A DNA stretch of 34,178 bases from Chloroflexota bacterium (GTDB lineage Bacteria > Chloroflexota > Dehalococcoidia > E44-bin15): assembly GCA_030626475.1 (NCBI GenBank), contig DAOUOW010000009.1, positions 1-34,178 of the forward strand. The letters are read 5' to 3'. Shown here piece after piece: positions 26,616 to 33,461 of the stretch. The notes beneath the pieces were generated by a model. That model worked only from the letters and a program-made list of their open reading frames with translations, was not told the DNA's origin and made no database searches. The first letter of the stretch is position 1. Every line of letters starts with the position of its first letter. The position numbers and the translations under genes were made by a program.

Positions 26616-26759
26616 ATGGCGGAAGCTTATTGCTTCAAGTGTCGGGCGAAAAGGGAGATAAGGAATCCCCAGAACGTTGTGCTTAAGAACAAGCGGCCAG
26701 CAGTCAGGGGGGTTTGCCCGGTGTGCGGGACAAAGGTGTTCCGGATTGGCAAGTCCTGA
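26616..26759 (+). CDS. DUF5679-like small zinc-ribbon protein
   Basis: A 47-residue protein with two Cys-x-x-Cys pairs, YCFKC (C6, C9) and CPVCG (C34, C37), expected to bind one zinc. The charged middle includes AKREIRNPQNV and the end is KVFRIGKS. It matches the pattern of small DUF5679 proteins known from Chloroflexota and Actinobacteria, whose function is not established. A zinc ribbon of this size and charge could contact RNA or protein. A consensus promoter and an unusually strong ribosome-binding site point to high expression. It stands alone, convergent with the PHP gene on the other strand. Confidence 0.85.
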   Translation: MAEAYCFKCRAKREIRNPQNVVLKNKRPAVRGVCPVCGTKVFRIGKS

Positions 26760-26803: not shown

Positions 26804-27475
26804 TTATCTCGGTCGGGGCAAAGGTAGCCTCTCAAGTAGTTTATGAACATTGGTCTTTAGCATTTCATCGATCTCTTCTTTGTCCAAGCCAGCCCCATGA
26901 GCGATAGCAAGAGCTAAATCAGGGGAGAGAAGATCGGTTTCGTCGTGAGCATCGGAGTTGAGGAGGAGCTTAGCCCCAGCAACCTTAGCCAGGCGAGCAA
27001 TGTGGCCATTGGCTAAAGAGCTGCCTTTCCTGGCGCTGATTTCGAGAAAGACGCCGTTTGCTGCTGCTAATTCGGCCTCCTCAAGGGTCAATAAGCCGGG
27101 ATGTGCCAAAATATCGACATCAGAGCACTGAAGTGCTGCTCTATTGGTGCCCTTTTCCACGGGCTCGGTGAATATCTCGCCGTGAACGATGACTAACCAT
27201 GCCCCCAATTCTTTGGCGTGTCTTGCTATTTCGCTTATTGCCTGGGGAGGAATATGGGTCAGCTCCACGCCAGGGATAGCGAGGATATCCCAGTGTGCTC
27301 TGGCCAGAGCACAATCTGCCGAGGTTTCCTTGATTATTCTCTCGAGGTAGCCAATAGCGACATGGTCGGTAAGCGCGATAGCTTTGTAACCCTTGGCCAG
27401 CGCACGCCTGATTAATTCTAGAGGCGATAAGGAGCCATCGCTGAGAGAGGTGTGGGTGTGAAAATCATAGATCAC
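26804..27475 (-). CDS. PHP-domain metal-dependent phosphoesterase
   Basis: A 223-residue protein of the polymerase-and-histidinol-phosphatase fold. Metal-binding motifs in order are DFHTHTSLSDG (His6, His8), ALTDH, GVELTHI, IVHGE, LAHPG and NSDAHDE, a complete set for a tri-metal site. Relatives are annotated as histidinol-phosphate phosphatase domain proteins; histidine synthesis genes are not nearby, so the substrate is open. The GTG at 27475 is chosen because AAGGAGG lies 6 bases before it, and a TTG at 27493 would include that site. It is divergent from the inositol-phosphate synthase gene, with 55 bases between starts, and might act on inositol phosphates. Confidence 0.88.
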   Translation of the reverse strand: MIYDFHTHTSLSDGSLSPLELIRRALAKGYKAIALTDHVAIGYLERIIKETSADCALARAHWDILAIPGVELTHIPPQAISEIARHAKELGAWLVIVHGEIFTEPVEKGTNRAALQCSDVDILAHPGLLTLEEAELAAANGVFLEISARKGSSLANGHIARLAKVAGAKLLLNSDAHDETDLLSPDLALAIAHGAGLDKEEIDEMLKTNVHKLLERLPLPRPR

Positions 27476-27530
27476 GATTCGCCTCCTTGGCAAAAATGGT
27501 TCTTGTCATAGCATATAGGAAGGAGCGAAT

Positions 27531-28607
27531 TTGGGCAAGATAAAGGTAGCTATAATTGGTGTTGGCAATTGTGCCTCCTCGCTGGTACAAGGCGTCTACT
27601 ATTACCGCAAAGCAGAAGAGAATGAATCGATCCCGGGGTTGATGCATATCAACTTGGGTGAGTATCACATCGGTGACATCGAGTTCGTTGCCGCCTTTGA
27701 TATTGCCCGCAACAAGGTGGGCAAGGATCTGGCTAGGGCAATCTATACCCCGCCCAATAACACCTTCAAGTTCTGCCAGGTTCCCACCACCGGGATCAAG
27801 GTAGAGCGAGGCATGACCCACGATGGGGTGGGGAAATACCTCTCTGAGGTAGTCATCAAAGCCCCGGGCTCTACAGTAGACATTGTCACCATTCTTAAAG
27901 AAAGAGAGGTCGATGTCGTAGTCAACTTCCTGCCGGTAGGCAGTGAGGAAGCCACAAAATGGTATATCGAGCAGGTGCTCACCGCAGGTTGTGGCTTTGT
28001 CAACTGCATCCCGGTGTTTATCGCTCGGGAGAAGTACTGGCAGAACAGGTTTGCCGAGAGAGGACTTCCCATTATTGGCGACGATATAAAATCACAGGTT
28101 GGCGCCACCATTACCCATCGCGTGCTAGCCAGCCTCTTCCGAGACCGCGGCGTTAAACTGGAGCGAACCTATCAGCTAAACTTCGGCGGCAATACAGACT
28201 TCCTCAATATGCTGGAGCGGGAGCGCCTAACATCGAAGAAGATCTCCAAGACCGAAGCTGTAACATCCCAGCTAGACTTTAAGATCGACCCCGATAATAT
28301 CCATGTTGGGCCCAGTGACTACGTTCCCTGGCTTGGCGACCGCAAATTCTGCTATATCCAAATGGAAGGGCGCACCTTCGGTGATGTCCCGCTCAAGGTG
28401 GAGCTAAAGCTTGAGGTCTGGGACAGCCCCAACTCGGCAGGGGTAGTCGTCGATGCCATAAGGTGCTGCAAGCTAGCTATAGACCGCGGCCTCAGGGGGG
28501 CGCTTATCGCCCCCTCCGCCTATTTTATGAAATCGCCCCCCATTCAGTATCGAGACGACGAAGCCCGCAAAATGGTGGAGGAGTTTATCGCTGAAGGAGG
28601 AGGATAA
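27531..28607 (+). CDS. ino1: Inositol-3-phosphate synthase (actinobacterial type)
   Basis: A 358-residue NAD-dependent enzyme converting glucose 6-phosphate to inositol phosphate. The N-terminal [17 protein letters not shown] is the dinucleotide site, and [50 protein letters not shown] and [12 protein letters not shown] are typical of the short prokaryotic Ino1 form. The C-terminal [15 protein letters not shown] is also conserved. It starts with TTG, preceded by AAGGAG 5 bases before. It heads a cluster with a PHP protein, a PimA-like glycosyltransferase and a CDP-alcohol phosphatidyltransferase, which suggests its product becomes the head group of phosphatidylinositol. Confidence 0.92.
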
Positions 28608-28648
28608 TTAATCCCTCTCAGGCAGCTGACGAGGAAAAGGGATATGGG

Positions 28649-29377
28649 ATGGCAGACATCCATATCCATAGTAGTATCGTTGATGGCATGGCTGACGTCA
28701 CCCAAATCCTGGAGTACGTAGAGGAAAACACCGACCTCGATGTCATTGCCATTACTGATCACGACAGGATTGAGGGCAGCTACCAGGCCAGAGAGCTAGC
28801 TGCCAAGCGCGGCTATCGCTTCGAGGTGGTAACTGGCATGGAGGTCACTACCCAAGAGGGGCATCTTCTTGCCCTCTACCTAGAAAGCCCCGCCCCCAGC
28901 TTCGAGCCGCTAGCGGAGACCATCGAGGCGATCCACAGCCAGGGTGGCCTTTGCATTGTCCCTCATCCTATGAGCTGGCTAACAGAGAGTGTCACCAGGC
29001 AGAGCCTGGAGAAAATTGTTGCCAGCAATGAGCACGGTCTGTACCTCGACGGCATTGAAACCATCAATGCCACGATAGCGGGGCGCATTTCTAATCCCAA
29101 GGCAAAAAGGTTTAACCACAAATACAAGCTTGCCGAAACCGGCGGTAGTGACGCTCACTTCCTGACCGTAATAGGTAGCAGCATTACCCTATTCCCGGGG
29201 CGGAGTGCCGAGGAACTAAAGCAAAGCATTTTGCACCAGACCACCAGGGCAGCAAAGGGCTTCAAGGTCAGGCTTAGTGATGTGGGATTGCTCCAAGTCG
29301 CAAGGCAGCTAATCAAGAGCAGGGGATTTCCTGTTCGCAACATTCTCCGAGCCATCCGCGAGAGAGATTTTCCGTGA
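28649..29377 (+). CDS. PHP-domain phosphatase, candidate for inositol-lipid pathway
   Basis: A 242-residue PHP protein. Metal ligands visible are His5 and His7 (ADIHIHSS), Asp37, His38 and Asp39 (ITDHD), Glu65 (GMEV), His72, His106 (VPHPMSW) and Asp168 and His170 (GSDAH), a full set. Related proteins hydrolyse phosphate esters such as nucleoside 3',5'-bisphosphate. It lies 41 bases after ino1 and its stop overlaps the glycosyltransferase start (GTGA). In actinobacteria the phosphatase acting after PIP synthase is a gap in the pathway. This gene's place between ino1 and pgsA makes it a candidate for that step, by context only. Confidence 0.85.
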   Translation: MADIHIHSSIVDGMADVTQILEYVEENTDLDVIAITDHDRIEGSYQARELAAKRGYRFEVVTGMEVTTQEGHLLALYLESPAPSFEPLAETIEAIHSQGGLCIVPHPMSWLTESVTRQSLEKIVASNEHGLYLDGIETINATIAGRISNPKAKRFNHKYKLAETGGSDAHFLTVIGSSITLFPGRSAEELKQSILHQTTRAAKGFKVRLSDVGLLQVARQLIKSRGFPVRNILRAIRERDFP

Positions 29378-30486
29378 AGATTGCTCTCGTCTCCCCCTAT
29401 GACTTTGCATACCCCGGTGGGGTAGTTGTTCATATTCGCCACCTCTACGAGCAGTTCACCAGGATGGGGCACAAGGCGAAGATCATCGCCCCGTGCTCCA
29501 GCAATAGAGATATCCCTTTCAGCGAGGACGTCATCCCCCTGGGAAAGCCAATATCAATCTACAGAAGAGGTACAGTAGCCCGCGTCGCCCTTTCGCCGCT
29601 TCTGTCAAGGAAGGTTAAGGCGACCCTAAAGGAGGAGCAGTTTGAGCTGATCCACCTCCATGAGCCACTATGTCCCCTTCTTCCCCTCCTCGTGCTCGAC
29701 CACTCTCAATCAGTCAACGTGGGCACCTTTCACGCCTATCATAGCAGTGATATGGGCTACATGTTCGGTAAATTTATCCTCAGGCGATGGTTTGGCAAGT
29801 TGCATGGCAGGATTGCCGTTTCTAAGCCCGCCATGGATTTCGTGAATGGATTCTTTCCCGCCAGCTACGATATAATCCCCAATGGCATTGACCTGGAACA
29901 CTTCTCCACTACTGTCCCCCCGATAGAAAGGTTCTGCGATGACAAGCTGAACATCCTCTTTGTTGGTCGCCATGAAAAGCGCAAGGGGCTGAGATATTTG
30001 CTCGCTGCCTATAAGCGGGTTAAAGAAGAGGTTCCTAACACGCGGCTTATCATCGTCGGGCCAGGGAACAGGGAGCACTACGAAAAGCAGGTAAACAAAG
30101 TTAACCTCGGGGATGTGGTCTTCGCTGGCTACGTATCCAATGAAGAGCTGCCGAGATATTATAACAGTTGCCACCTTTTCTGCGCCCCAGCTACGGGGGA
30201 GGAGAGCTTTGGCATCGTTTTGCTTGAGGCCATGGCTGCGGCCAAGCCCATCGTTGCTTCGCAGATTGAGGGCTACGCCAGTGTTCTCAGCCACGAGGTC
30301 GAGGGGATTCTGGTACCCCCCAAGGATGGGCAGGCTCTGGCTGAGGCCCTTGTTCGTCTTCTTAGCGACAGATCCCTGCGCCAGGAGATGGGCGCCAAGG
30401 GAAGGCAAAAGGTGGAGGAGTATAGCTGGCAGAACATTGCTCAAAGGTTATTACAATACTACACTAGACTGCTCAATGGAACTTAA
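29374..30486 (+). CDS. GT4 glycosyltransferase, PimA-like
   Basis: A 370-residue GT-B glycosyltransferase of family 4. The N-terminal MKIALVSPYDFAYPGGVVVH has the glycine-rich acceptor loop typical of PimA and relatives. In the C-terminal half come ILFVGRHEKRKGL, LIIVGPG and the EESFGIVLLEAMAAAKPIVAS segment with its two Glu for nucleotide-sugar binding. PimA transfers mannose from GDP-mannose to phosphatidylinositol. The adjacent pgsA-like and ino1 genes favour a PI acceptor here, but the donor sugar is not proven. The GTG start overlaps the PHP stop and its 3' end overlaps the next gene by 11 bases. Confidence 0.88.
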   Translation: MKIALVSPYDFAYPGGVVVHIRHLYEQFTRMGHKAKIIAPCSSNRDIPFSEDVIPLGKPISIYRRGTVARVALSPLLSRKVKATLKEEQFELIHLHEPLCPLLPLLVLDHSQSVNVGTFHAYHSSDMGYMFGKFILRRWFGKLHGRIAVSKPAMDFVNGFFPASYDIIPNGIDLEHFSTTVPPIERFCDDKLNILFVGRHEKRKGLRYLLAAYKRVKEEVPNTRLIIVGPGNREHYEKQVNKVNLGDVVFAGYVSNEELPRYYNSCHLFCAPATGEESFGIVLLEAMAAAKPIVASQIEGYASVLSHEVEGILVPPKDGQALAEALVRLLSDRSLRQEMGAKGRQKVEEYSWQNIAQRLLQYYTRLLNGT

Positions 30487-31072
30487 AAGGCGAGCTTACC
30501 AAATAAGCGATAAATTGCACCACCTTGCTGAGCCAGTGTCCAAGGTGATCGCCAAGACGGGGGTACCACCCAATGCCGTAACCTTCTTTGGCTTTGGTTT
30601 AAATATTGTCGCCGCTTGGCTACTGGCCACAGGACATTTCCTGCTCGGCGGATTCATGATCCTTATTGCCGGAGTCTTTGACCTCCTTGATGGAGCGCTG
30701 GCAAGGGTTACCGGGAAGAGCACAACCTTCGGCGCCCTCCTCGATTCCACCATTGACCGCTACTCCGAAGCGGTGCTGCTTTTTGGGCTACTGTTCTATT
30801 TTGCCCGGCGCCATGACACCACAGAGGTGATACTCATCTTCGCCACTATGGTAGGCTCGATGATCATTAGCTACGCAAGGGCAAGGGCGGAGGGGCTGGG
30901 ACTGGATGCCGAGGTGGGGATAATGAGGAGGACGGTGAGAATTTGCACCCTTGCGCTGGGGCTGGTGATAAATCAGGTCCTCGTCTTCCTCTGGATCTTG
31001 GCAATCCTCACCAATTTTACCGCGTGGCAGCGCCTGTTCTATGTGTGGCGAAAGAGCGGTAAGCAAGGATGA
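30476..31072 (+). CDS. pgsA: CDP-alcohol phosphatidyltransferase, probable PI(P) synthase
   Basis: A 198-residue membrane enzyme with about five helices. The CDP-alcohol phosphotransferase signature is complete: Asp69, Asp72, Gly73, Ala76, Arg77, Gly86, Asp90 and Asp94. It joins CDP-diacylglycerol to an alcohol. Size and the motif PPNAVTFFGFGLN resemble phosphatidylinositol-phosphate synthases of actinobacteria more than glycerophosphate synthases, and the ino1 gene upstream supplies the matching alcohol. The ATG at 30476 lies inside the end of the glycosyltransferase gene, and the much longer upstream frame is a shadow. It ends 8 bases before the convergent peptidase gene. Confidence 0.85.
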   Translation: MELKRRAYQISDKLHHLAEPVSKVIAKTGVPPNAVTFFGFGLNIVAAWLLATGHFLLGGFMILIAGVFDLLDGALARVTGKSTTFGALLDSTIDRYSEAVLLFGLLFYFARRHDTTEVILIFATMVGSMIISYARARAEGLGLDAEVGIMRRTVRICTLALGLVINQVLVFLWILAILTNFTAWQRLFYVWRKSGKQG

Positions 31073-32295: not shown

Positions 32296-33399
32296 TCCTT
32301 CCCCTCCCCCAGGGTGGATTTGAGATATGCCTTGATCAGCTCATCGAGATCACCATCAAGCACCGCCGCCGGGTCGCTGGTCTCACATCCGGTGCGATGA
32401 TCCTTCACCATCTTATAGGGATGAAGAACATAGCTCCGGATCTGGTTGCCCCAGCCTGCGGCCACATGCTCACCCTTAAGCCTCGCCTGCTTCTCTGCCT
32501 TCTTTGCCAGCTCAAGCTCCAGGAGGCGAGAGCGCAGGATCTTGAGCGCCGTCTCCTTATTCTGAAACTGGGAGCGTTCCTTCTGGCAGGTGGCGACCAG
32601 CCCTGTAGGGAGGTGGGTTACACGAACCGCAGTGCTGGTCTTCTGCACATGCTGGCCTCCGGGCCCGCTGGCGCGGAAGAAGTCAATTCTCATGTCATCG
32701 GGGTCTAGCCTGACATCGACATCCCTTTCCGCCTCAGGCATCACCTCCACCAGGACAAAGGAGGTGTGGCGAGCATGGGAGGCATCGTAGGGAGAGAGGC
32801 GAACCAGGCGGTGCACCCCTCGCTCCGACTTCAGATAGCCGTAGGCGTGCTTTCCCACAACCTCGATGAGGGCGCTCTTAATTCCGGCCTCCTCTCCAGG
32901 TGAGACCTCAAGCACCGCCGCCTGGTAGCCACGGCGCTCCGCCCACCTGAGATACATCCTCAAAAGCATCTGCGCCCAGTCCTGGGCATCGGTACCCCCA
33001 GCGCCAGCGTGAACAGCGAGGATGGCGTTTCTCTGGTCATATTCGCCGCCGATAACCAGCTCGAACTCCAGCTCCTCAAGCTGTGAGGATATCCTCTCCA
33101 GCTCAGCGCCAATCTCCGCCTCCAGTGAAGCGTCCCGCTCATCGACAGCCATTTGGGCCAGCTCCAAAACCTCAGCAACCCTTCTCTCAAGGGCGCGCCA
33201 CCTTTGCACCTCCCCCTTGAGCTCGCTGAGATGGCGCATAGTGGTCTGTGCCCGCTCCTGCTCCTGCCAGAAATCGGGCTTGGAGGACTCCCTCTCTAAC
33301 CTGGCGACCTCTTCTTCCTTGTGGGCGATGTCAAAGACGCACCAGCATATTAGAGATGCGAGCCTTTAGCTCATCAAGCCTTTTCTTATGTTCCTGCAT
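32292..33399 (-). CDS. prfB: Peptide chain release factor 2 with programmed +1 frameshift
   Basis: RF2 releases proteins at UGA and UAA. The first frame starts at 33399 after GGAGGG and reads 22 codons to an in-frame TGA at 33333-33331. A +1 shift at CTT-TGA-C continues the protein for another 346 residues, giving 368 in all, like E. coli RF2 (365). The GGQ motif is at 247-249 of the joined product (SGPGGQHVQK). The stop-codon recognition tripeptide, SPF in most RF2, is SPY here (202-204). The frameshift makes RF2 regulate its own level: scarce RF2 leaves the UGA slow and shifting is favoured. The ATG at 33239 is not the true start. Stop TGA overlaps the peptidase start. Confidence 0.96.
33330..33336 (-). 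promoter_or_regulatory. Programmed +1 frameshift site CTTTGAC
   Basis: On the minus strand CTT (33336-33334) is followed by TGA (33333-33331) and C, the same heptamer as in E. coli prfB. A GGTG three bases before CTT may act as a weak internal Shine-Dalgarno signal. The frame is open on both sides exactly as needed. Confidence 0.93.
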
Positions 33400-33461
33400 T
33401 TTTTGGCCCTCCTTTTTCGCACTCCTTTTTCGAACGCCTGCCGGTCTTGCTTTTTGAATCC

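Follow-up and report, generated by a model that had tools for sequence, protein, structure and literature searches.

The window analysed here, a stretch of 34,178 nucleotides from a Chloroflexota bacterium, contains four consecutive genes on the forward strand in the order ino1, PHPx, GT4 and PIPS, with a second PHP gene diverging on the other side of ino1. The ino1 gene (27531..28607, + strand) encodes an inositol-3-phosphate synthase of 358 amino acids (PF01658, 128 bits; TIGR03450, 528 bits, below the cut-off of 638). PHPx (28649..29377, +), whose start codon is uncertain, encodes a PHP-family phosphoesterase of 242 amino acids that we regard as a candidate PI-phosphate phosphatase. GT4 (29374..30486, +) encodes a PimA-like phosphatidylinositol mannosyltransferase of 370 amino acids, and its GTG start lies within PHPx, the two genes sharing 4 nt (29374-29377). 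PIPS (30476..31072, +), which overlaps the end of GT4 by 11 nt, encodes a CDP-alcohol phosphotransferase of 198 amino acids (PF01066, 62 bits) resembling the PI-phosphate synthase PgsA1. These open reading frames confirm the first-pass annotation in placing a PHP gene between ino1 and the GT4 and PIPS genes. Its claim of coupled translation held for GT4, given the 4-nt overlap. For ino1 the claim is unsupported if translation of PHPx starts at ATG 28649, which lies 41 nt beyond the ino1 stop, so that the two genes do not overlap.

A stretch resembling a ribosome-binding site, GAGGAAAAGGG (28631..28641, +; read from the sequence), lies 7 nt ahead of ATG 28649. Homology to relatives extends a few residues upstream of this ATG (GYG-(x)-ADIHIHS), and PHPx translation may therefore begin at a rare codon further up, such as ATT 28607. 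This ATT lies directly behind GGAGGAGG at the ino1 stop (window 28595-28651), and the PHPx upstream region of one relative (L033) is likewise devoid of ATG, GTG or TTG starts. The divergent gene (26804..27493, −) is of the PRK06361 type (NCBIfam PRK06361, 278 bits; cut-off 117), and such a gene adjoins ino1 in several members of the Dehalococcoidia, whether or not they have PHPx. Between truB and this divergent gene lies a reading frame for a 47-amino-acid DUF5679 protein (window 26616-26759, +). Elsewhere in the window, prfB, on the reverse strand, seems to contain the classical site for programmed +1 frameshifting (CTT TGA C; region 33239-33420), in which case its 315-amino-acid open reading frame covers just the latter part of release factor 2.

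PHPx is a real gene under purifying selection. Its pN/pS against five relatives of the same family is 0.25-0.29, which lies between the values for ino1 (0.13-0.17) and GT4 (0.27-0.36) in that family and argues against a chance open reading frame. The only Pfam matches of PHPx are PHP (PF02811, 29.0 bits; cut-off 26.4) and PHP_C (PF13263, 45.6 bits; cut-off 21.3), both above their cut-offs; the PgpA domain PF04608 is not among them. All PHP ligand positions are filled in the window protein (H5, H7, D12, H38, E65, H72, H106, D168 and H170, taken as metal ligands by analogy with the PHP family), confirming the full metal-ligand set previously read from this gene. In an alignment of 82 rows, which includes the window and excludes two decayed copies and three fragments, these ligands are invariant except for H5, the first histidine of HxH, which is glutamine in 21 of 93 in-cluster sequences (for example, L046, L048 and L054). 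An AlphaFold2 model of PHPx (pLDDT 94.5, pTM 0.89) has the PHP fold, and the solved structures that match it best are the PHP phosphoesterases BVU_3505, TM0559, BAD_1165, RNase AM and Cv1693, although sharing a fold with these enzymes does not specify the substrate. PHPx scored far below the cut-offs of the nucleotide-directed families, namely RNase AM (NF047791; 49.4 of 375 bits), 3',5'-nucleoside bisphosphatase (NF041577; 48.1 of 400 bits) and cyclic-phosphate dihydrolase (NF041661; 34.3 of 500 bits). We also found that the C-terminal tails of in-cluster PHPx proteins are longer and more charged, with a median net charge of +7, against +4 for out-of-cluster genes and +5 for paralogues. Because the paralogues also have basic tails, this feature is only compatible with a membrane anchor, and we did not retain that idea.

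The enzymes encoded around PHPx resemble those of mycobacterial PI-mannoside synthesis. The best solved matches of GT4 are PimA structures (PDB 4n9w, E 2.9e-61; 2gej, E 3.3e-61), far ahead of the next different enzyme (E 7.2e-27), and that of PIPS is a CDP-diacylglycerol--inositol 3-phosphatidyltransferase, mycobacterial PgsA1 (6h53, E 1.4e-23). Among NCBIfam families, PIPS scored 156 bits for archaetidylinositol-phosphate synthase (cut-off 180) and 142 bits for PIPSynth (cut-off 170), both below threshold. The window thus contains a mycobacterial-type gene set, comprising Ino1, a PIP synthase with an inositol-phosphate site and a PimA-like enzyme in one cluster, with Ino1 and PIPSynth scores short of the NCBIfam cut-offs. 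In Mycobacterium tuberculosis PgsA1, residues R94, S132, R155 and R195 bind inositol phosphate, according to the accessible passages of two reports (PMC6506517, PMC4634129). Matching positions by motif and order, we found the equivalents of R94 and S132 in all 95 PIPS rows from PHPx-bearing lineages, that of R155 in 94 and that of R195 in 88 (the other 7 being gaps). All four were present in each of 44 other rows, a set that includes L153, L154 and L052, the last a contig fragment of a PHPx-bearing genome. PIPS from clusters without PHPx therefore keeps the same inositol-phosphate residues, and the PIPS alignment revealed no active-site difference between PHPx-bearing and PHPx-less lineages. 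Retention of these residues suggests that the product of PIPS should be PI-phosphate, which, by analogy with the mycobacterial pathway, would need to be dephosphorylated before the PimA-like enzyme could act.

The neighbourhood of PHPx is widely conserved. A named collection contains 181 stretches encoding PHPx relatives, and we compared the window with the best 80 of these 181; the resulting 81 loci share ancestry, some being near-copies of others, which means that their counts are not independent. The next labelled gene downstream of PHPx is GT4 in 74 of the 81 loci, PIPS in 2 (L091 and L093) and none in 5, three of which are at a contig end. Where GT4 comes next, no more than 30 nt separate it from PHPx in 67 of the 74 loci, and in 51 the two genes overlap, with a gap of −4 nt. 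PHPx is accompanied by GT4, PIPS, Ino1 or PatA in 80 of the 81 loci, the exception being L138. The pairing of PHPx with GT4 also persists where the rest has been rearranged (L143, L193 and L194). Among the matches listed, Ino1 or PIPS occurs no further than 10 kb from at least 42 of 70 PHPx matches scoring 240 bits or more, at least 11 of 34 at 220-240 bits, at least 2 of 13 at 210-220 bits and none of 33 below 210 bits. Viewed from the pathway genes, PHPx is nearby for at least 23 of 56 PIPS near Ino1 among the matches listed, and not for 33. In-cluster PHPx sequences group together on the tree, with 3 label changes against a shuffled mean of 17.9. Related PHP genes that are not part of the cluster, from 13 fetched loci, form a few separate lineages. 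It is close to certain that PHPx belongs to an inositol-lipid operon. One PHPx-bearing genome (G007) has a second GT4-PIPS pair (L153:7073-8335) beside its PHPx operon.

Such conservation bears on the idea that PHPx is an inherited neighbour with no role in inositol lipids. The gene is dispensable or decayed in several relatives, as that idea would predict, but retention of the neighbourhood across many families and through rearrangement, the overlapping reading frames in 51 of the 74 loci and the purifying selection on PHPx make it highly improbable.

Acyltransferase genes are a further common element of these loci. One or two of them lie between ino1 and PHPx in most relatives, and PatA-like genes neighbour PHPx in 67 of the 81 loci; the window has no PatA-like gene between ino1 and PIPS. 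For one acyltransferase of L040, the best solved match is PatA (PDB 5oce, E 3.2e-20) and the top NCBIfam family is PI-mannoside acyltransferase, below its cut-off. These neighbours would suit an ester hydrolase, such as a deacylase of acylated PI-mannosides, as would the best NCBIfam match of PHPx, the CehA/McbA metallohydrolases (NF038032), whose characterised members are aryl-ester or carbamate hydrolases. Nevertheless, this match (75.1 bits) does not reach the curated cut-off of 80, and PHPx is kept in the window and in several close relatives whose clusters contain no PatA-like gene (considering the cluster only). We therefore think it very unlikely that PHPx acts on esters.

The two loci without GT4 provide a different view of the association. 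In L093, PIPS follows PHPx directly. In L091 (2047-4966), from a member of the Myxococcales, the genes after PHPx encode a nucleotidyltransferase and two CDP-alcohol phosphotransferases. The first of these phosphotransferases resembles archaetidylinositol-phosphate synthase (84 bits, below cut-off), and the second-best NCBIfam match of the nucleotidyltransferase is inositol-1-phosphate cytidylyltransferase/DIPP synthase (59 bits, far below cut-off), so that this may be a cluster for a lipid or solute of the CDP-inositol type that includes a PHP phosphatase. Together, these loci indicate that PHPx stays tied to a phosphotransferase where Ino1 and GT4 are not nearby. They also weigh against the proposal that PHPx acts on another intermediate or by-product of the PimA step or on a later glycolipid, the substrate being a phosphodiester, a nucleotide or a glycolipid that carries phosphate, in line with the activity of its relatives towards nucleotides and RNA ends. 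That proposal draws on GT4 being the tightest link of PHPx in the 81 loci, on the presence of RNase AM and of the Cv1693 amidohydrolase with AMP among the closest folds, and on the persistence of GT4 and PIPS without PHPx, as expected of an accessory step. Given L091 and L093, and the scores far under the nucleotide-family cut-offs, we consider it unlikely.

The first-pass annotation had proposed co-occurrence with ino1 as a check, and a family found widely without ino1 as a refuting result. No such result appeared: all 24 relatives with a PHPx orthologue, out of 41 (the copy in G025 being decayed), have Ino1, 23 by TIGR03450 and G038 by PF01658. The check itself had no discriminating power, because ino1 is almost universal here. 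TIGR03450 detected Ino1 in 38 of the 41 relatives (Fisher p 0.56 for association with PHPx) and Ino1 is present in 225 of 251 genomes of the phylum (p 0.10); the latter table uses a PHPx threshold of 240 bits, and 6 of its 26 Ino1-lacking genomes fall outside the matches listed. A PHPx match of 240 bits or more is present in 66 of the 251 genomes, of which at least 3 are TIGR03450-negative among the matches listed. Upon rechecking, three PHPx-bearing genomes missed by TIGR03450 (G179, G254 and G038) have another Ino1, as do the genomes of L091, L093 and L116. In Tepidiforma and a few others, the gene for this other type (matching PF01658 and, in the cases examined, not TIGR03450) lies away from the lipid cluster (L232-L236). 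The converse association fails: 15 of 17 relatives without a PHPx orthologue still have ino1, and in 12 of these 15 we read the ino1-GT4 cluster and found no PHPx.

The link with Ino1 raises the question of whether PHPx acts on free inositol-3-phosphate, as an inositol monophosphatase that either keeps the pool of inositol phosphate in balance or supplies free inositol. Consistent with this, PHPx adjoins ino1 in the family of the window, its bearers all have Ino1, and PHP enzymes are commonly soluble phosphomonoesterases. But PHPx sits beside GT4 or PIPS in loci where ino1 is elsewhere (the Tepidiforma loci L116, L119 and L182, and also L091 and L093), and IMPase-family genes are already present in 31 of the 41 relatives, in a pattern that is not complementary. 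Moreover, PIPS in the same operon uses inositol phosphate, so its removal by PHPx would compete with the pathway. A role on the free inositol phosphate is thus distinctly unlikely in our assessment.

Many lipid clusters do without PHPx. Among the fetched loci L141-L220, 44 have GT4 together with Ino1 and/or PIPS; PHPx is present in 9 of these and absent from 35. We set two of these aside, since L153 is an extra GT4-PIPS pair in a genome that also has PHPx and L154 probably represents the missing half of a broken cluster in G014. This left 33 PHPx-less clusters, 30 of which have both Ino1 and PIPS; the number 33 is not a rate, because the loci were chosen partly for having no PHPx nearby in a table. 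Decay was also evident. G006, from the same family as the window, has an in-frame PHPx remnant that has lost its middle and carries Gln in place of H7, and G025 has a full-length decayed copy with H72N, D168G and an altered D12 region; Ino1, GT4 and PIPS look intact in both. Copies decayed in place, with their open reading frames kept, lie at L055:2318-2725 and L053:5848-6615 (−). In G001, from the same genus as the window, the contig stops just past ino1. If PHPx were the sole enzyme for the step, it should occur wherever Ino1, PIPS and PimA do; the 33 clusters and the decay in G006 and G025 indicate that it cannot be the only one in Chloroflexota.

We then considered known phosphatases as replacements in the PHPx-less genomes and discarded both candidates: PgpA is nearly absent from the class, being found in 1 of 41 relatives, and the IMPase distribution is not complementary to that of PHPx (p 0.71). 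In the Dehalococcoides-like genome G027, searches for PHPx, PgpA and IMPase revealed none of the three. The flanks of PHPx-less clusters, judged by eye from first residues, contain purA, truB, infB and others and no evident phosphatase. A replacement phosphatase in these genomes, if there is one, is unlinked.

The taxonomic setting differs from that assumed earlier. Of the best 80 of 181 relatives, 78 bear Chloroflexota names, for the most part those of Dehalococcoidia. The other two are L091, named as Myxococcales, and L093, a 'bacterium' without further placement whose sequence falls with Tepidiforma in the tree. The source organism is a dehalococcoidian, and the actinobacterial premise of the first reading was wrong. 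PHP_C was not found in the control genome of Corynebacterium glutamicum, in which Ino1 was found. Given this and the host lineage, PHPx is probably not the PI-phosphate phosphatase of actinobacteria, and an answer found here would not transfer to them.

We favour, as on balance probable, the reading in which PHPx is the phosphatase of a Chloroflexota operon for PI-mannoside-type lipids and removes phosphate from PI-phosphate. Dephosphorylation of PI-phosphate is the sole step of the route with no assigned enzyme; as a phosphoesterase coupled to the enzyme that would act afterwards, PHPx most likely belongs at this step. Ino1 would make inositol-3-phosphate, which PIPS would couple to CDP-diacylglycerol to give PI-phosphate. 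PHPx, a putative metal-dependent phosphomonoesterase whose translation is coupled to that of the PimA-like enzyme, would take off the phosphate; PimA would then mannosylate PI, and PatA-like enzymes, where present, would acylate the mannosylated product. Lineages without PHPx would have to use another phosphatase if they make PI, in which case PHPx would be one solution among several. This substrate and reaction are what we infer for PHPx; its operon membership, fold and ligands, and the conserved inositol-phosphate site of the synthase, are observations. The original suggestion of a missing phosphatase thus survives in part: the conserved inositol-lipid operon, the phosphoesterase family and the need of the pathway for a PI-phosphate phosphatase speak for it, whereas the 33 clusters without PHPx and the C. 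glutamicum result speak against it. As a general missing phosphatase PHPx is not supported; it is a lineage-specific candidate.

The phosphatase of the bacterial two-step PI route is described as unidentified in passages of papers from 2015 and 2019 (PMC4634129, PMC6506517). In the accessible text of a later study, that of Bacteroides thetaiotaomicron is BT_1525, a PgpA-family protein supported by a knock-out (Heaver et al. 2022, PMC9246714). In a search of the open-licence literature, we recognised no paper that identifies any PHP protein as the PI-phosphate phosphatase and found none on such a pathway in Chloroflexota. We suggest, more tentatively and at slightly less than an even chance, that PHPx may be the first PHP-fold phosphatase of phospholipid headgroups, acting on PI-phosphate and unrelated to PgpA, with an old presence in Chloroflexota and repeated loss or replacement since. 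If so, the PI-phosphate phosphatase step would have been filled independently by different protein families. PHPx is a concrete and easily assayed second candidate beside BT_1525, and its hosts include a cultured species with a complete genome, Tepidiforma flava (L116).

Several known systems resemble the one described here. The stand-alone PHP phosphoesterases TM0559 (2anu), BVU_3505 (3e38), BAD_1165 (3o0f), RNase AM (7ug9, 9etk) and Cv1693 (2yb1) share the fold (VIA Z 18-22) and metal-site layout of PHPx, with 16-24% identity over the aligned parts. Unlike them, PHPx has a basic tail past approximately residue 206, and it does not have the stretch that Cv1693-like proteins carry between the positions of PHPx residues 78 and 83. 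In mycobacteria, the PI and PI-mannoside genes are ino1, pgsA1, pimA and patA. Their counterparts here lie in one operon, with PatA-like genes in most relatives; by contrast with the mycobacterial set, the operon includes an additional PHP gene with translational coupling to pimA, and the window cluster has no patA. Finally, the BT_1525 cluster of B. thetaiotaomicron, as far as the accessible text describes it (PMC9246714), shares with PHPx both the proposed step and the cluster logic, in that the genes for Ino1, PIP synthase and the phosphatase are neighbours. The two phosphatases belong to unrelated families (PgpA and PHP), and BT_1525 has knock-out evidence, whereas PHPx is a candidate drawn from sequence.
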